From Neisseria subflava (GTDB lineage: Bacteria > Pseudomonadota > Gammaproteobacteria > Burkholderiales > Neisseriaceae): a DNA stretch of 64,000 nt. Positions 8,961 to 17,470 of the stretch are shown piece after piece. The position numbers and the translations under genes were made by a program. The stretch's first letter is position 1; each line of letters begins with the position of its first letter. The notes below the pieces were generated by a model. That model was not told where the DNA came from. It saw only the letters and a list, made by a program, of their open reading frames with translations, and did not search any database. The DNA lies in NCBI RefSeq assembly GCF_003044935.1, contig NZ_POXP01000003.1:1-64000 (forward strand). Direction: 5' to 3'.

Positions 8961-9103
8961 AGTTAATTAGGACTAGCTTAAAAATAAATATTTTGAATTA
9001 AACGAACTACTTAGAAAATAGGGGCTAGAGTATAGTTTCATCGGACTACATCTTTTTGATAGAATCTGCCACCAAATTAAAACATCAGCTAACTGGAGAA
9101 GCT

Positions 9104-11281
9104 ATGTCACTACCCGTATTTCCCTATGGCAAATTAAGCTTTGCCGTCAGTCTGGCGCTGTGTTCGGCGTATTCTTTCGCAACCGAAGTAGAAAATACCC
9201 AGCCGCAAGAGCGTGTCGATTTACCGACAGTTACCGTCCAAGGTGTCGGAAAACAGACTACTTCCAACTACACCATTCCTGCTTCCTCTGTCGCAACAGG
9301 CATCCGCCTGACCCAGCGCGAAACGCCGCAGTCCTTGTCCGTTGTCACAGAAAAACAAATGGACGACCAAGGTTTGGATACCTTGCAGGACGTATTGAAA
9401 CAAACGCCAGGCGTGTTCCACAGCAAAATGGGCAACAACGTATCCGGCCACAGCCAATTTATTTCGCGCAGTCAGGCGATTGACAGCATTTCCGTAGACG
9501 GCGCGCCCAAATTCCTTTACGACGGTAAAGCCATCCGCCGCGGCACCAACAATCTGGACAGCACATTGTACGAACAAGTCGTCGTCGTGCGCGGCGCAAG
9601 CGGTTTGTCCAACGGCGGTATGGGCGAGCCGGGCGGTACGGTTGCTTTGGAACGCAAAAAACCGACTGCCAAGCCAGCCATCAGTGTGGAAGCCGGTGTC
9701 GGTTCGTGGAAACACTACCGCTTCGTCCTTGATGCCAATCAGCCTTTGAATGCAGACAATACCTTGCGCGGCCGCGCTATTTTGGTCAGCGACCATGGCG
9801 GCGATTACCTGCCGAGTACATCGCGCCATAATCACACTTTCTACGGTACTTTGTCTTACGATATCACGCCGCAAACCCAATGGCGCCTCGGTACGGAAAT
9901 ACACCGTTTCCGCAATACCGGCAGCTCGCGTTTCAGCTACCTGACCGCAGCAGGCAATCGTAAAGACGGATTCAAACCGTTTGAGTCTTCGCCACGCAGC
10001 AATTCGTCCGCACGCTGGGCATACGGCAAAGACACCAGTGCCGAAGTGTTCACTTCCCTCAGTCATGAGTTTGACAACGGCTGGAAACTGACAGGCGATT
10101 ACAGCCATGTTTCGGGCAAAAATGACATCGTTTCAGGCATTGCCGGTACTTATGTCATCAAATCCGACTATTCCGCGCTCTTTACGTCTGACCGCGATCG
10201 CAGCAAATACCGCGACCAGAATTTTTCATTGGCCTTGGACGGCCATTATCCGGCGTTGGGCCGCTCGCACGAGTTCAATGTCGGCATCAGCTATCAGGAC
10301 AACAAAGAAAACCTGTCTTTCTATGAAGAAGGCGAGTCGATGATTCCTGATTTGCGCCTCTTTAACGGCAACATCGCCAAACCCGATATGCCATATCTAC
10401 GCGATGGTTTTTCACACATGAAAAACCTGTCGGTTTACGGCTCGACCCGTTTCAAACTGACCGATAAGCTCGCCTTTATCGGCGGCAGCCGTTTTGTGGA
10501 TTGGCGTTACCGTTACAGCACTGACCGCAACAAATTCGCACACAGCAGCCACAAACAAAACGTTTTCATTCCTTATTTGGGCGTAACCTACGACATCGGC
10601 GACAATCTGACCGCCTATGCATCTTACACCACCATTTTCCGTCCGCAAGTACGTTACCTGACCAAAGACGGCGCGGCGCTCAAACCGCAGCGCGGCAAAA
10701 CCTACGAGACCGGTTTGAAAGCGTCATGGTTTGAAGGCCGTCTGAATGCTTCCGCCTCCGTCTTTATGAACAAACGCGACCATTTGGGCGTGGTTGCAGG
10801 CAAATTCGCGAATGGCGAGGAATACTACCGTGCAGCCGACAACACCACAACAAAAGGCGTGGAACTCTCTGTCGGCGGCCGCCTGAGCGACAAATGGCTG
10901 CTGAATGCGTCTTATGCACGTTCCAAAATCAAAGACAGCGAAGGTGTTCAACTGCATCCGTCTTATCCGGTTCATTTGTTCAAACTCTTTACCGCGTATG
11001 ACGTGACCGACCGTTTGAACCTGGGTGCCAACGTCAACTGGCAAAGCCGCAGCCACACGCTGGATGAATACCCTGCAGACATCAATCCGGCCGCCGCCGC
11101 CGCATTGACCCAACGTCCGTACGCAACGCTGGACTTGACCGGTCATTACAAAATTGGCAAATCCACCCGCATCAGTTTGGACTTTGAAAACGTGTTTAAC
11201 AAACGCTATCGCACCATGCCGGATATTCACGTTTACGGCACGCCGCGTAGTGTGACTGCAACGGTTAAACATACGTTCTAA
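9104..11281 (+). CDS. TonB-dependent siderophore receptor (FpvA/FhuE/FoxA type)
   Basis: An outer membrane receptor of 725 residues. It opens with a signal peptide (about residues 1-26, ending YSFA), then a plug domain with the siderophore-receptor signature (RETPQSLSVVT, LDVLKQTPGV-like, VVRGASGL, GEPGGTVALERK) and a 22-strand barrel ending in phenylalanine. Plug motifs place it with ferric hydroxamate or pyoverdine-like receptors, distinct from FetA. The start at 9104 is chosen because GGAG lies 6 bases upstream and the signal peptide begins there; an in-frame TTG at 9056 has no such site. No transporter genes are adjacent, and no good Fur box was found upstream. The ligand is unknown; probably a xenosiderophore. 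Confidence 0.88.
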   Translation: MSLPVFPYGKLSFAVSLALCSAYSFATEVENTQPQERVDLPTVTVQGVGKQTTSNYTIPASSVATGIRLTQRETPQSLSVVTEKQMDDQGLDTLQDVLKQTPGVFHSKMGNNVSGHSQFISRSQAIDSISVDGAPKFLYDGKAIRRGTNNLDSTLYEQVVVVRGASGLSNGGMGEPGGTVALERKKPTAKPAISVEAGVGSWKHYRFVLDANQPLNADNTLRGRAILVSDHGGDYLPSTSRHNHTFYGTLSYDITPQTQWRLGTEIHRFRNTGSSRFSYLTAAGNRKDGFKPFESSPRSNSSARWAYGKDTSAEVFTSLSHEFDNGWKLTGDYSHVSGKNDIVSGIAGTYVIKSDYSALFTSDRDRSKYRDQNFSLALDGHYPALGRSHEFNVGISYQDNKENLSFYEEGESMIPDLRLFNGNIAKPDMPYLRDGFSHMKNLSVYGSTRFKLTDKLAFIGGSRFVDWRYRYSTDRNKFAHSSHKQNVFIPYLGVTYDIGDNLTAYASYTTIFRPQVRYLTKDGAALKPQRGKTYETGLKASWFEGRLNASASVFMNKRDHLGVVAGKFANGEEYYRAADNTTTKGVELSVGGRLSDKWLLNASYARSKIKDSEGVQLHPSYPVHLFKLFTAYDVTDRLNLGANVNWQSRSHTLDEYPADINPAAAAALTQRPYATLDLTGHYKIGKSTRISLDFENVFNKRYRTMPDIHVYGTPRSVTATVKHTF

Positions 11282-11470: not shown

Positions 11471-12514
11471 TTACGCTTGGTAACCTTTCGCTTCGGCAAG
11501 CAGGGCCAGCAATTCTTCAGTCGTATCCCAACCGATGCAGGCATCCGTAATACTTTGACCGTAAACTTCAGGCTTGTCTTGGCGGCCTTCAACCAAGTGG
11601 CTTTCCACCATCACGCCCATGATGTTTTCTTCACCGGCTTTCAGCTGCGCCGCAACATCGCGCGCTACATCCATTTGTTTGCGGAAGTCTTTACGGCTGT
11701 TGGCATGGCTGCAGTCCACCATCAGTTTGCTGCTCACGCCGGCTTTTTGAAGCTGCGCAACCGCGTCTTTAACGTGTTCTGCGCTGTAATTAGGCTCTTT
11801 ACCGCCGCGCAAAATCGCATGGCAATCAGGGTTGCCGCTGGTGTGGACAATCGCAGAATGACCGGCTTTGGTTACAGACAAAAAGTGGTGCGGATGATTG
11901 GCGGCACCGATGGCGTCGATGGCGATTTTCAGATTGCCGTCCGTACCGTTTTTAAAACCGACAGGGCAGGAGAGGCCGCTGGCCAATTCGCGGTGTACCT
12001 GGCTTTCAGTCGTACGCGCACCAATCGCGCCCCAAGAAATCAGGTCGGCGTAGTATTGCGGCGTAATCATGTCCAAGAATTCAGTCGAAGCAGGCATGCC
12101 CATTTCGTTCAAAGTCAGCAACAACTGACGCGCTTGGCGCAGGCCGTAGTTAATGTCAAACGTACCGTCCAAGTGCGGATCGTTAATCAGACCTTTCCAG
12201 CCAACAGTTGTACGCGGTTTTTCAAAATACACGCGCATTACAATCAGCAGCTCTTTCTCATATTTTTTGCGCAAAGGCAGCAATTTTTGCGCATATTCTA
12301 CCGCCGCCTTAGTATCGTGAATCGAGCATGGGCCGATAATGACCAGTAAACGGTTGTCGCGGCCGTGAACCAAATCCGAAATCTCATGACGCGTTTTATA
12401 AACTAAATTGGCAACCTGAGGCGTAACAGGCAGCTCATACAAATGTGCGATTGGAGGGAGTAACTCTTTGACTTCTTTGATCTTAATGTCATCGGTAGGG
12501 TGGTGTTGGGACAT
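11471..12514 (-). CDS. aroG: 3-deoxy-7-phosphoheptulonate synthase (DAHP synthase), AroG type
   Basis: First enzyme of the shikimate pathway: joins phosphoenolpyruvate and erythrose 4-phosphate to DAHP for aromatic amino acids. The 347-residue length and the class I-alpha motifs are normal: GPCSIHD (metal-ligand cysteine), RVYFEKPRTTVGWKGL (substrate phosphate), GARTTESQ, FKNGTDG, and CSHANSRKD with the metal-ligand histidine. Overall similarity is to the phenylalanine-inhibited AroG of E. coli; which amino acid inhibits it cannot be read with certainty. The upstream region (12515-12725) is very AT-rich and should contain its promoter. Confidence 0.95.
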   Translation of the reverse strand: MSQHHPTDDIKIKEVKELLPPIAHLYELPVTPQVANLVYKTRHEISDLVHGRDNRLLVIIGPCSIHDTKAAVEYAQKLLPLRKKYEKELLIVMRVYFEKPRTTVGWKGLINDPHLDGTFDINYGLRQARQLLLTLNEMGMPASTEFLDMITPQYYADLISWGAIGARTTESQVHRELASGLSCPVGFKNGTDGNLKIAIDAIGAANHPHHFLSVTKAGHSAIVHTSGNPDCHAILRGGKEPNYSAEHVKDAVAQLQKAGVSSKLMVDCSHANSRKDFRKQMDVARDVAAQLKAGEENIMGVMVESHLVEGRQDKPEVYGQSITDACIGWDTTEELLALLAEAKGYQA

Positions 12515-12725: not shown

Positions 12726-12755
12726 CAGGCCGTCTGAAAATGTTCAGACGGCCTG
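12726..12755. terminator. Inverted uptake-sequence terminator
   Basis: CAGGCCGTCTGAA and its complement with a four-base loop, placed between the aroG promoter region and the end of the convergently facing upstream gene on the minus strand. Confidence 0.7.
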
Positions 12756-12792
12756 AAGTCTTACATAGACCAAAAATTGAGAAGCGTGAAGG

Positions 12793-13470
12793 CTATCGAT
12801 ATTGTTCCAGCAAGGGCGAAGAGAAAGGAGTCCAATACACGCCTTTAAGGCCGCTTTCAACCAATTTGTCATTCAACCAAGTGTTACAAGTATTGAATAA
12901 ATGATAGCGCCCTTTGGCTTCGTAAAAAGCATCGTTAGATTGATGATGAATTCCTTTTAGCAAGATGGGGTGCCCATTTTTTTGTTGAAAACCGGCCAAG
13001 AGCGATTTTGTTAAATTCCTGTATTGCTCAGGCGTGACCAAAAATTTGACGACGTGGCTATTTTCTCGTGGTTCAAAAGGATAATAAGTAACATGAATCA
13101 GCGTACGGTTCAGCCCGCTTAATGCACCTAAAGCATTGGAGAAAGTCAAATCTTTCCACTCAGGCGTGTATAAATAAAAATTGCGCTCCCCCCAGCCTAA
13201 ACCGATATGCGTTATTTGAGGATTAGTAGAAAGCGTGTCTTTTGGATTGACGACATTCGACCAATCAAAAATATCATTCTTCAGCGGCATGACTACATCA
13301 GTATGCACGCCGTTACTGACTAAAAATAAAGTAATTTCCCCTTTGGGCTGCTCTTCATTAAGCGGCAATGAAGCCATCATCCAAGCAGACAAAAAATACA
13401 ATAGGGCAAAAATAGGGATAATCAGCGCTATTTTGCCGATTTTTTTGAGGATGTGAAGGAAGGAACGCAT
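12793..13470 (-). CDS. DUF2459 (TIGR02117) family protein
   Basis: A 225-residue protein with one N-terminal membrane segment (about residues 12-34), so mostly periplasmic and anchored. The family features are visible: SNGVHTDVVMPL early on, GLGWGERNFYLYTPEW in the middle, and the CNTWLNDKLVESGL stretch near the end. A His/Cys set of this sort is reminiscent of a cysteine-peptidase or acyltransferase fold, but no activity is known to me for this family. It is less GC-rich than its neighbours. It stands alone, with a terminator on each side. Confidence 0.75.
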   Translation of the reverse strand: MRSFLHILKKIGKIALIIPIFALLYFLSAWMMASLPLNEEQPKGEITLFLVSNGVHTDVVMPLKNDIFDWSNVVNPKDTLSTNPQITHIGLGWGERNFYLYTPEWKDLTFSNALGALSGLNRTLIHVTYYPFEPRENSHVVKFLVTPEQYRNLTKSLLAGFQQKNGHPILLKGIHHQSNDAFYEAKGRYHLFNTCNTWLNDKLVESGLKGVYWTPFSSPLLEQYR

Positions 13471-13596
13471 TCGTTTTTTTTAAAGGCAATTAAGTTTGAA
13501 GGTGTGTATTTTCCATTAAATTTGTACTTTTTTCATTAGAAATGAATAGATGGTATCTTGCGACTAATGATAAAAATGGTTGTTTAACTTGAATAA

Positions 13597-13631
13597 AAAA
13601 AGGCCGTCTGAAATATTCAGACGGCCTTTTT
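13597..13631. terminator. Inverted uptake-sequence terminator
   Basis: AAAAAGGCCGTCTGAA, a three-base loop and TTCAGACGGCCTTTTT form a perfect hairpin with T runs on both strands, 49 bases after the tannase-like gene on the minus strand. Confidence 0.8.
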
Positions 13632-13679
13632 CCAATTAAAACGGGATACCAAATCTCATCTCAATCCATGTTGGAACGC

Positions 13680-15182
13680 TTATTTTGCAGAGCTGCTGAC
13701 CTGTTTCATCCAGGCAAATAGTTCGTCCAAGTCATAATCGCCGCCGTGGCCGACATACCAAGGCAGGGCGTAGTCAACGGTTTGGCCGTTGTTTTGCAGT
13801 TTGGCGGCTAAGATGGCGGAGACTGCCAGTGAGGTGTCGCGGTCGTTGGTGCCGACGCGGATGCGCCAGTTTTGCGGCAGATTTACGCCCGGTTTGCCGA
13901 TGTAGTTGAGCGGGTTCATGATTTTGATGGTTTCTTCATCTGCGATTTCGGCGTTGGCGGCGGTGTTGTGTTGCATGGAGAACGCGGTGAAGTGGCGTTT
14001 GTCGACGGTATTGGTGCCGAAGAGTTGGTTTTCGCCTGTGCTTAAATCTACGCCGTCAAAGGCCGGCGGTGTTTTTTGGCGGCCGGCGGCTTTGGCGTAG
14101 GCATCGAAATCGACGGAGACGACTTTGCCTTTGCGGACGGTCAGCCAAGTGCGGTCTCTTAGGTCTTTGCCTGCATCAAGCTGGGCTTGTGCGGATTGGG
14201 CAATTAAACCGGCAATATGGTTTTTAAAGCTGCCGTTGCCTTGGGCGTCCAGTGTCAGGGGTTTGCCTTCGGGGGATTTCAGGTTCAGGCTGTTGAGGTA
14301 TGCGGGGTATAGGGGTTTGAGGAGGTCGGACAGTTTTTTCTCGTTATCGGTCAGTGTACCTGCGACCAGCTCGCGTTTGACGCGGTAGTCGAGCATGGAA
14401 ATGTTCATTTTTTTGTAGTCGTTGATACCGTTGAACTGCCATTCGTAAGCCATGTCGGCATGGTCCAAATCGGTAATCGGACAGTAGGCGGATACGGCGA
14501 AAACTTTGTCGCTGCCGTCTGCCGCTCCTAAGGCTTCGAGGTGGTTTTCGTAATCTTTTTGGTCGGCTGTTGCGCCTAAGAGGGCGGACATTGCGCCGCC
14601 TGCGCTTGTGCCGTTGGAAATGATTTTTTCGGCATCACCGGGCATGACTTTGTCGTTGGCTTTCAGGTAACGGACGGCGGCTTTCAAATCAACGATAGCG
14701 GCAGGTGCTTTACCGGTGGGTTCTGTCCGGCCGCGTGCGCCAGGGGATGCGACGACGTAGCCTTTGGAGAGGGCAACCAGGGCGGCGTTGGGCGATTTTT
14801 GGCCGTCTTCAGGCTCGCCGCGTTTGCCTTCTAAAGCAGGTTTGCCGGGTTTGGCCGGCATATAGCCGCCGATTTGGTTGGGCAGGAAAATCGGTGCGGT
14901 TTCGGCGTTGAAACCGTCTATCTCACCGCCGTTGTAATAGGCTTCGGGTACATAAATATTGATGATTTCGTAACGGGTATCGACAGGATTGCGGACGTAA
15001 ACTACGCCTTCGTAAGCGCGGAATTTAACCGCCTGACCGTTCACTTCGATGCTTTGTTCGGTGTATTTTTGTTTGGAGAAGTCTAGGTCGTAGGTGTCTG
15101 CGGTTTTGACGGAAGCGCAGGCGCTCAATCCCAGCGCGACAGAAACGGATAAGAGGGTTTTGTTTAGGGCGTTCATCATCAT
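13680..15182 (-). CDS. Tannase-like lipoprotein (subtype B tannase, alpha/beta hydrolase)
   Basis: A 500-residue lipoprotein: signal peptide and lipobox LSAC put the acylated cysteine at residue 22. The body matches bacterial subtype-B tannases, which split gallate esters of plant tannins. The nucleophile S193 sits in GTSAGG; D447 and H479 (GHGGDYDLDELFAW) complete a triad with spacing close to that of the Lactobacillus enzyme. The residues holding the galloyl ring there (a Lys, a Glu 14 later, and an Asp two after the catalytic Asp) have counterparts here in K370, E384 and D449. Those correspondences are from memory of the family and counted by hand. It follows the Slam gene in the same direction. 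Confidence 0.8.
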   Translation of the reverse strand: MMMNALNKTLLSVSVALGLSACASVKTADTYDLDFSKQKYTEQSIEVNGQAVKFRAYEGVVYVRNPVDTRYEIINIYVPEAYYNGGEIDGFNAETAPIFLPNQIGGYMPAKPGKPALEGKRGEPEDGQKSPNAALVALSKGYVVASPGARGRTEPTGKAPAAIVDLKAAVRYLKANDKVMPGDAEKIISNGTSAGGAMSALLGATADQKDYENHLEALGAADGSDKVFAVSAYCPITDLDHADMAYEWQFNGINDYKKMNISMLDYRVKRELVAGTLTDNEKKLSDLLKPLYPAYLNSLNLKSPEGKPLTLDAQGNGSFKNHIAGLIAQSAQAQLDAGKDLRDRTWLTVRKGKVVSVDFDAYAKAAGRQKTPPAFDGVDLSTGENQLFGTNTVDKRHFTAFSMQHNTAANAEIADEETIKIMNPLNYIGKPGVNLPQNWRIRVGTNDRDTSLAVSAILAAKLQNNGQTVDYALPWYVGHGGDYDLDELFAWMKQVSSSAK

Positions 15183-15220
15183 ACTTTCTGAAGAGGTGAA
15201 CGGATATGATAACCAATACT

Positions 15221-15268
15221 CAGGCCGTCTGAAACACCAAGTCGGGTTTCAGACGGCCTGATTTTTTT
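15221..15268 (+). terminator. Inverted uptake-sequence terminator between Slam and tannase genes
   Basis: CAGGCCGTCTGAAA pairs with TTTCAGACGGCCTG across a 12-base loop. The T run lies on the plus strand only, so its efficiency in the direction of the two flanking minus-strand genes is uncertain. Confidence 0.55.
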
Positions 15269-15466
15269 GTAGCGTTATGCGGTGTTGTACGTTACGTTTG
15301 TAAGGTAATATCGGTTTGAATTTTATCTATTTGATAAATATGAATTTAATAAGGCGTTGTGCCTTAAAAAATCTATTGATTCGGTATCTGTAAAAGTTTG
15401 AATCTGTCTTGTAAATCAGTATGCAGAACAGGCATTCTTGCTTTCTTCACAGATTGGTTCTGCTTG

Positions 15467-16942
15467 TCAGAACGTTTTGCTCAATTCGACAAACATTTTG
15501 GTTTTGCCGTATTCGTAGAACTTGTCGTTGCTCCATGTTTTGTTGTGGGCAATGGTCAGGCGTGGGGTGATGCCTTTGAAATGGAGGGCGCGATGCCATA
15601 CGCTCAGGGAGGCGGAGGCTTCTTTGTCGCGGCGGTTTTGTTCGTTGCTGAAGAAGCTGGGGGCTTGGTAATGGCGTTGGGCGGCGCTGAGGCGTAGGAC
15701 GGTGGAGAGGCCTTTGGGCCATTCTTGTCCCCATGTGGTGCGCAGGGCGTAGCGGTTGAAGCTGTCGCTTTTGTCGTCGCGGTTGCGTTCGCGGTAGAGG
15801 TCGATACCGGCTACCCAGTATTGGCGCGCGTTGCGGTAGTACACGATGGAGTTGCTGAGCAGTTGGCTGGTATTGTTGGAATGCTCGCGGCGGCTGTTTT
15901 TCAGACGGCCTGCTTCAAATGCGCTGAGGGTTTGCAGCTTGGGTTGCCACCAATGGTTGTAGTGGAGGCGTGCGCCGTTGGTGTAGGTGTAGGGGTCGTT
16001 GCCGTAGAAGCGGCGTTCGTGGAACGGGGTAATGCCGATATCGTTGTGCTGGTCGGCATAGCCGATGCCTGCTGAGAAGCGTGTGGTGAGGTCGTTGTAG
16101 TTGGTGTGTTTGGGGTAGATTTTGCCGTAGTGGTCTGCGCCTGCCGTGGCATAGAAGCCGCGTGGCAGCGACCATTTTTTTTCTGCACCGATTTGGTAAT
16201 GGATGGCGGTGGCATCGATGGGTTCGGGGAATGTCCAGCCTCGGAAGCAGTCGTCGTCAGGATAGGCAAGGCGCACGGCGCGGCATTGTTCGTCGTTCAG
16301 GTGGTTGCCCAGACGGCGTTGGCCGGGAGCTTGGTTAATGTTTTGTTCGCGCGTGATGTTCAAGCCGGCGTTGAATTGCCATGAGTCGCGTTCGCGTAGG
16401 GCTTTGCGGTAGGTTTCGAGGCGTTCTTGCAAGGCAGGAGGGAGGGATTCGGTTTGCAGTTTGTCGAACTGGTCGGCTGCGGCTTCGTTTTGTTTGTCTT
16501 CAAACAAGGCGGTTGCAAGCTGCCAGCGGACGGCGGAAGCATCGGGCTGCTCGGCGATAAAGCGGCGGTAATAGCCGACGGCTTCGGCGGCGCGCCCTTC
16601 AGATTGGGCAAGCAAACCTTTGGCATAGCGCGCCATGGCGCGGTCGTGTTCGGGCCATTGTTCGTAAATGGGCAAAACGGCTTTGATGCCGGGGATGTTG
16701 TGGGCGACGACGGCGGAATACATGACGCGTGCCAGTAATTCGGTGTTGGCAAGCAGGGTGTCGGCATCGACGTTGATGATTTTTTCAGACGGCCTGTTTG
16801 TCTGCTCGGCAGGGATGTTGTGCGTTTCAGGCTGTTGGGGTTCGGCTGTGTTGACTTGAAGCTCGGGTTTTACGTCAGGCGGCACATCGGCGGCTTGAAG
16901 GGAAAGGGGAAGGATGGCGAGGAGGAGCAGACGTTTTTTCAT
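15467..16942 (-). CDS. Surface lipoprotein assembly modifier (Slam) family outer membrane protein
   Basis: Slam proteins move lipoproteins through the outer membrane to the surface. This one has a signal peptide (residues 1-17, ending LQA), a periplasmic TPR-like part (to about residue 190, with LARVMYSAVVAHNIPG, YAKGLLAQSEG, RWQLATALFEDKQNEAA) and a C-terminal DUF560 barrel of about 300 residues ending in phenylalanine (FVELSKTF). The 491-residue length fits Slam1/Slam2. The start at 16942 is chosen because MKKRLLLLA begins a proper signal peptide; an upstream in-frame ATG at 17044 would bury it. The next lipoprotein gene downstream is the tannase-like one. Confidence 0.87.
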   Translation of the reverse strand: MKKRLLLLAILPLSLQAADVPPDVKPELQVNTAEPQQPETHNIPAEQTNRPSEKIINVDADTLLANTELLARVMYSAVVAHNIPGIKAVLPIYEQWPEHDRAMARYAKGLLAQSEGRAAEAVGYYRRFIAEQPDASAVRWQLATALFEDKQNEAAADQFDKLQTESLPPALQERLETYRKALRERDSWQFNAGLNITREQNINQAPGQRRLGNHLNDEQCRAVRLAYPDDDCFRGWTFPEPIDATAIHYQIGAEKKWSLPRGFYATAGADHYGKIYPKHTNYNDLTTRFSAGIGYADQHNDIGITPFHERRFYGNDPYTYTNGARLHYNHWWQPKLQTLSAFEAGRLKNSRREHSNNTSQLLSNSIVYYRNARQYWVAGIDLYRERNRDDKSDSFNRYALRTTWGQEWPKGLSTVLRLSAAQRHYQAPSFFSNEQNRRDKEASASLSVWHRALHFKGITPRLTIAHNKTWSNDKFYEYGKTKMFVELSKTF

Positions 16943-17043
16943 GGCAATGTTTGGAATGTTATCGGTATAAGTGGGCAGATTGTACAATGTTTTGAGTCGG
17001 AAATTTTGTAAACCGATTGCCATTTTATCTGATAAAGACGACA

Positions 17044-17083
17044 AAAGGCCGTCTGAAACCTGATGGGATTTCAGACGGCCTTT
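17044..17083. terminator. Inverted uptake-sequence terminator
   Basis: AAAGGCCGTCTGAAA and TTTCAGACGGCCTTT with a ten-base loop, 16 bases past the end of the minus-strand secreted protein gene at 17099. Confidence 0.75.
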
Positions 17084-17098: not shown

Positions 17099-17470
17099 TT
17101 AGTTTTGATCCAAGTCCAAATCGGCTTTGTATTCGATACGGCCTTGGCCTTTGTCTTCGATGGAAACGTCCAGCTCTTGTTTGCCGCGTTTGAATTTCAG
17201 ATCAGCATCGTCGTGTTTGATTTCAGACTCAACCACATGGAAACCTTTGCTACGCGCGTGGGCGATCACTTTTTTGGCCAAGGAAGGAATGGAATTGCGT
17301 TGGCCGGAAAGTTCGGCTTCGTATTCAAATTCGCCGTCGCCTTGATGATCGGCTTTGATGGTGTGCGCGCCATCCGGACGGTAAATTTCGGAAGGCAGCG
17401 GGGAGGCGAATGCCGTGGCGGAGAAAAGAGCCAAAATGCCGGTGGCCAGTAACGATTTTGCTTTGGTCAT
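17099..17470 (-). CDS. Small secreted hypothetical protein
   Basis: A 123-residue periplasmic protein. It has a clear signal peptide (residues 1-22, ending AFA) and no lipobox. The mature part is charged and built of alternating beta-rich segments (DGEFEYEAELSG, ADLKFKRGKQELDVSIEDKGQGRIEYKADLDL), which resembles small periplasmic PepSY-like folds, but I do not recognise a named family. An AAAGGAAAACCG ribosome site precedes the ATG. It sits upstream of the Slam gene in the same direction, separated by a terminator and 156 bases, so a link to Slam is only positional. Confidence 0.7.
   Translation of the reverse strand: MTKAKSLLATGILALFSATAFASPLPSEIYRPDGAHTIKADHQGDGEFEYEAELSGQRNSIPSLAKKVIAHARSKGFHVVESEIKHDDADLKFKRGKQELDVSIEDKGQGRIEYKADLDLDQN

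Follow-up and report, generated by a model that had tools for sequence, protein, structure and literature searches.

The closest described relatives of the enzyme considered here are three bacterial tannases. TanBFnp of Fusobacterium nucleatum subsp. polymorphum, an exported protein from an oral bacterium, has a predicted signal peptide of 20 residues, and the Fusobacterium homologue, offered a panel of 27, hydrolysed only esters of gallic and protocatechuic acid (PMC5828091). CbTan2 of Clostridium butyricum (PDB 7Q6Y) uses the functional residues S175, C216, K365, E379, D439, D441 and H471 (PMC8958541), and TanLp (TanBLp) of Lactiplantibacillus plantarum is represented by PDB 4j0g and other entries. 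PMC5828091, published in 2018, names Neisseria among the oral genera in which the Fusobacterium tannase has orthologues. A characterised neisserial tannase was not found in the open-licence literature, judged by titles and the start of abstracts. The statement of an earlier sequence-only reading that it knew of no described neisserial tannase holds in that literature for characterised enzymes, but not for the gene as such, as orthologues in Neisseria had been reported and the family model NF041556 fits the gene far above its cut-off.

The window, i.e. the whole stretch of 64,000 nucleotides analysed (contig NZ_POXP01000003.1 of Neisseria subflava), encodes what is very probably a catalytically intact, Sec-exported and lipidated outer-membrane tannase that cleaves galloyl esters and is carried in a DUS-bounded cassette; its activity, localisation, substrate and benefit are what we infer from the features described below. 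With TanBFnp it has the seven functional residues in common as well as the predicted export from an oral bacterium, whereas the lipobox and the DUS-bounded cassette set it apart from the fusobacterial protein. Family and residues are also in common with TanLp, which PMC5828091 groups with the intracellular TanB enzymes, in contrast to the predicted export in Neisseria. The triad, the gallate site and the Cys coincide with those of CbTan2, which has no predicted signal peptide, unlike the neisserial protein.

Family assignment and active site

The match of the 500-residue product to the NCBIfam equivalog NF041556 (subtype B tannase) spans the full length of the profile and scored 696.8 bits (E 1.8e-209, cut-off 300), compared with 179.3 bits for the subtype A tannase model. 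Its length lies within the range of about 470-570 residues given for subtype B tannases in PMC8958541. The top PDB matches were all tannases, namely 6yq4 (E 2.3e-142), 7q6y (E 3.3e-120) and 4j0g (E 2.1e-119), with 6yq4 and 4j0g spanning residues 29-495 and 41-493 of the query; 6yq4 was taken as TanBFnp, PMC8958541 naming 6YQ4 as the F. nucleatum tannase. The Pfam families above their cut-offs, BD-FAE (best, 61.3 bits), Abhydrolase_3 and Peptidase_S9, are families at the level of the fold.

The GXSXG serine, the catalytic Asp (not Gln) and the His are all present in the alignment to CbTan2, and in the alignment to the PDB sequences each of the seven functional residues has its published counterpart in 7q6y. 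S193 in GTSAGG, K370, E384, D447, D449 and H479 stand at the positions given by the sequence-only reading, whose proposal of a subtype B tannase with the galloyl-binding Lys, Glu and Asp beside the triad is borne out by the correspondence to CbTan2, by the NF041556 score and by the presence of 6yq4 and 4j0g among the PDB matches. These six residues were identical in all 20 full-length sequences compared (18 from Neisseriaceae and two from Campylobacter concisus). The tannase of genome G024, which is cut by a contig end and lacks the last three functional positions in a wider alignment, was excluded from this count.

Regarding selection, the Nei-Gojobori dN/dS values between the window tannase and its orthologues in G022, G044 and G045 were 0.014/0.230, 0.010/0.108 and 0.021/0.166, corresponding to ratios of 0.061, 0.089 and 0.125, respectively; the ratio was 0.061-0.139 across all six pairs among the four close genomes. 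Purifying selection acts on the protein. Judged from its sequence, the assignment to subtype B appears correct, and the gene looks like an ordinary, well-conserved bacterial tannase that would be expected to cleave gallic acid from plant tannins. The enzyme is a further member of a known tannase family and not a new type of system.

Locus layout and DUS repeats

Along the minus strand the gene order is 123-residue protein, Slam, tannase, DUF2459 and aroG (Table 1). The 123-residue protein yielded no Pfam or NCBIfam match at E values up to 1. A TonB-dependent siderophore receptor gene, separated from the tannase gene by two others, is located on the opposite strand; the FauA and FhuE models reached 386 and 348 bits, both under their cut-offs, and the gene is retained with 82-97% identity in all four near relatives examined (G022, G033, G044 and G045).

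Table 1. Features of the tannase locus in window coordinates
Feature	Position	Strand	Remarks
TonB-dependent siderophore receptor	9056-11281	+	TIGR01783, 251.3 bits (cut-off 223.5)
aroG (DAHP synthase)	11471..12514	-	other flank of the variable region
Inverted AG-DUS repeat	12729..12752	.	edge of the variable region on the side of aroG
Region absent from near relative G033	12755..15453	.	55 bases between the flanks in G033
DUF2459 / TIGR02117 family protein	12793..13470	-	second cassette gene; missing in G045, which retains the tannase
Inverted AG-DUS repeat downstream of tannase	13603..13625	.	A run before, T run after
Subtype B tannase (tannin acyl hydrolase), predicted lipoprotein	13680..15182	-	500 aa; NF041556, PDB tannases, purifying selection
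Catalytic His479 codon	13746..13748	-	aligned to CbTan2 His471
Gallate-binding Asp449 codon	13836..13838	-	aligned to CbTan2 Asp441
Catalytic Asp447 codon (subtype B hallmark)	13842..13844	-	aligned to CbTan2 Asp439
Gallate-binding Glu384 codon	14031..14033	-	aligned to CbTan2 Glu379
Gallate-binding Lys370 codon	14073..14075	-	aligned to CbTan2 Lys365
Cys234 codon	14481..14483	-	aligned to CbTan2 Cys216
Nucleophile Ser193 codon (GTSAGG)	14604..14606	-	aligned to CbTan2 Ser175
Signal peptide with lipobox L-S-A-C (Cys 22)	15117..15182	-	pattern match
Promoter-like TTCAGA-16-TATCAT just upstream of tannase	15206..15233	-	first hexamer overlaps DUS
Inverted AG-DUS repeat between Slam and tannase	15224..15257	.	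T run after it on + strand only
Slam (surface lipoprotein assembly modulator; SlipAM + TPR_Slam)	15467..17044	-	PF04575, E 3.1e-91
123-residue protein, signal-like start, upstream of Slam	17099-17470	-	also upstream of Slam in G015 (L104)

In close strains, alternative whole-gene cassettes occupy the site between one and the same pair of genes. Relative to the window, G033 retains Slam without the tannase, G045 lacks only 12755-13594, G044 has about 840 additional bases between the tannase and DUF2459 genes, and G022 carries about 1.2 kb inside DUF2459; several of the breakpoints are at or near inverted AG-DUS repeats. The tannase gene very probably sits in a cassette bounded by DUS which members of the species group have gained or lost at the site between Slam and aroG, and natural transformation is a plausible route for its transfer. 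Cassettes with such a pattern have been named minimal mobile elements (PMC3898611), and the present locus resembles that system of Neisseria in having whole-gene cassettes between two conserved genes that differ among close genomes, with the comparison here covering five genomes, all from a single species group. In two genomes of the meningococcus-like clade, G028 and G017, aroG lies upstream of Slam instead, unlike the order in the window.

On a wider scale, the neighbours of the tannase were clustered over 21 loci (20 fetched loci and the window; G024 and G040 are cut by contig ends near the gene, and the gene of G051 is decayed). Four of them adjoin Slam, eight lie near fdhD-fdhE and nine near neither. 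DUS boundaries as a general rule were considered and rejected: only 6 of 18 loci have an inverted DUS on each side of the gene at a distance of up to 250 bases, against a background in which 9.9% of 2000 random 250-base stretches of the window contain an inverted DUS.

The AG-DUS form prevails in the window, where 91 of the 109 copies of GCCGTCTGAA are preceded by AG and the mucDUS form occurs twice. PMC3630211 reports AG-DUS from N. subflava, N. flavescens, N. mucosa C102, N. elongata, N. bacilliformis and N. weaveri, and AT-DUS from N. lactamica, N. cinerea and N. polysaccharea; the AG-DUS dialect of the window agrees with the oral-type Neisseria host named from the letters alone. The repeat downstream of the tannase was not among the calls of a terminator scan. 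In the repeat between Slam and tannase the T run is opposite to the strand of both genes; since it lies only on the plus strand, this repeat may not stop transcription of Slam, and Slam and tannase might be read together. Promoter-like sites occurred at chance level (six found, mean of 4.2 after shuffling).

Export, function and alternative readings

The N-terminus of the tannase, MMMNALNKTLLSVSVALGLSAC, contains the lipobox by pattern, and the residue following Cys22 is Ala. Under the Lol rule, Ala after the lipobox Cys would favour sorting to the outer membrane. The window tannase is likely a lipoprotein, and is probably tethered to a membrane of this commensal Neisseria. The lipobox pattern is present in 14 of the 18 full-length Neisseriaceae tannases (G003 among these being ambiguous by eye), with the first start codon of each open reading frame taken as the start. 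In three of the 18 (G012, G040 and G021) the inspected N-terminal region contains no Cys and resembles an ordinary signal peptide; the tannase of G016 has a Cys whose surroundings fall outside the pattern. Because of these four sequences, membrane anchoring is not a fixed trait of the tannase, and given the three without the Cys, lipidation is not universal among the orthologues. The lipoprotein proposed by the sequence-only reading is retained for the window, on the basis of LSAC and Cys 22, but does not extend to the three orthologues without an N-terminal Cys.

In the proposed mechanism the tannase would be exported via Sec, receive a lipid at Cys22 and be held in the outer membrane. It would act as an alpha/beta hydrolase with Ser193 as nucleophile, assisted by His479 and Asp447, with Lys370, Glu384 and Asp449 gripping the galloyl hydroxyls. 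Candidate substrates are galloyl esters of dietary polyphenols, e.g. catechin gallates and small galloyl sugars able to pass porins, and cleavage of the ester would remove the protein- and metal-binding power of the polyphenols. The freed gallate is most likely not a carbon source. Profile searches of the genome detected no gallate-degrading enzyme among the UbiD and LigB families: the sole UbiD match, at 910.7 bits against a cut-off of 788, is the ubiquinone enzyme, the model of hydroxyarylic acid decarboxylase subunit C reached 280.5 of the 650 bits needed, and the sole LigB-family match is a 4,5-DOPA-extradiol dioxygenase. Within the scope of these two families gallate is probably not used, because the only members present are the ubiquinone enzyme and the DOPA dioxygenase; the likelier benefit would be to detoxify galloyl esters or to free their alcohol part, a sugar or catechin.

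A gallate operon was also considered and rejected. The most common neighbours over the 21 loci are fdhD and fdhE, accessory genes of formate dehydrogenase (8 of 21 by clustering, with profile identification in L042 only), and a search for fdhD at 1e-20 was negative in all five genomes of the group to which the window belongs. We know of no link of these genes to gallate.

That the protein is, in vivo, a related esterase of the same fold, e.g. a hydrolase of feruloyl or other hydroxybenzoyl esters, is improbable: BD-FAE is indeed its best Pfam family, but the 61.3 bits reflect the fold only, against 696.8 bits for the tannase equivalog, and the gallate-contacting residues are retained. It is about equally improbable that the adjacent Slam flips the tannase, as its cargo, onto the cell surface, where the enzyme would act on large tannins. 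Such a role would be in line with a lipobox protein that adjoins Slam in the same orientation, as in 4 of the 21 loci, with the read-through from Slam that the T run on the other strand of the intervening DUS repeat would permit, and with PMC5449769, in which 185 of 353 Slam homologues are next to a gene for a lipobox protein and a proven cargo of Pasteurella multocida has no sequence similarity to the known neisserial cargo, so that Slam cargo can differ from TbpB in sequence. However, a search of Pfam at E values up to 1 found no TbpB-like or FHBP domain in the tannase, whereas the survey of Slam partners in PMC8406197 centres on the TbpB-like domain, and 17 of the 21 loci, two of them truncated by contig ends close to the gene, have no Slam next to the tannase. 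Moreover, G016 and G021, whose genomes are 100% and 99% complete, encode the tannase but gave no match to the window Slam at 1e-30, which is still compatible with distant Slam paralogues; G033 shows the converse state; and the adjacent Slam frame of G022 is interrupted next to an intact tannase. FHBP_C-family proteins elsewhere in the genome (C2:433112, 97.3 bits) are likelier cargo. With adjacency in only 4 of 21 loci and no TbpB-like domain, Slam export of the tannase appears unlikely from sequence, and for these reasons, together with the intact tannases found without Slam, it was rejected as the main reading. If true, a Slam-borne tannase in this species group would be an alpha/beta hydrolase enzyme as cargo of the Slam system without a recognisable TbpB-like barrel.

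Some outer-membrane lipoproteins are exposed at the surface without Slam. Arrival of the tannase at the surface by such a route, or its exposure in part of the cells, is less doubtful than transport by Slam but still rather unlikely; high-molecular-weight tannins would require an enzyme on the outside, while the orthologues without the lipobox Cys in G012, G040 and G021 would be expected in the periplasm, which seems enough in those lineages. The surface enzyme put forward by the sequence-only reading, detoxifying galloyl esters that bind proteins and iron, is thereby a hypothetical role. The preferred reading remains a lipidated tannase of the outer membrane.

Two observations concern the Slam genes of the relatives. 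The G022 orthologue (L039, 6841-8414) is divided between two frames, with the break near residues 117-150 of its counterpart in the window, which may represent phase variation, decay or an assembly error, and one TAA was flagged inside the Slam match of G045.

Occurrence within and beyond the genus

The gene is not unique to the genome of the window. The family search placed 20 of 83 genomes above the cut-off, 19 of these being among the 46 genomes of the genus and one among the 37 of other genera; a single match at 1e-60 was found among 368 other genomes drawn evenly from the class. Among the 19 positives the tannase of G024 is cut by a contig end and that of G041 is split into two pieces, and G051 and G066 (a 133-residue open frame) score under the cut-off. 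AroG of 30 of the 43 genomes with an AroG match was compared with PDB 4hsn. The identity was 96.2-99.7% in six genomes (G031, G028, G013, G047, G023 and G017) and 89.5% in the next. The 4hsn sequence is presumably from N. meningitidis. None of the six genomes with an AroG at least 96% identical to 4hsn, i.e. the clade nearest to the meningococcal AroG, had a tannase match. Named records encoding relatives (eight loci) were from N. dentiae, N. elongata, N. weixii, two Neisseria metagenome bins, two Campylobacter concisus and one Bacteroidales.

A quick GyrB tree covering 45 of the 46 genomes, in which 15 of 41 inner branches are open, requires a minimum of 11 changes between presence and absence of the tannase (G050 with a partial GyrB match was left out, and G051 was scored as tannase-absent); accordingly, either gain or loss of the gene has been frequent or recombination has affected GyrB itself. 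Tannase remnants were seen at L056, L055 and L022, where G051 has internal stops, G041 two pieces and G066 a C-terminal piece of 133 residues; they suggest repeated loss. As a patchily distributed, selected gene across the genus, the tannase would point to diet-derived polyphenols as a candidate niche factor within Neisseria, and for the metabolism of catechin gallates in the mouth it offers an enzyme that is easy to assay.

In a quick tree of 26 tannase rows the 19 rows from Neisseriaceae form one clade (SH-aLRT 99). The donor of the Neisseriaceae tannase cannot be named from this tree, because 9 of its 23 inner branches are open and several of the outside rows are long. A recent foreign origin was also considered by composition and rejected, as the GC content of the gene is an unremarkable 54.2% compared with 51.5% for the window.
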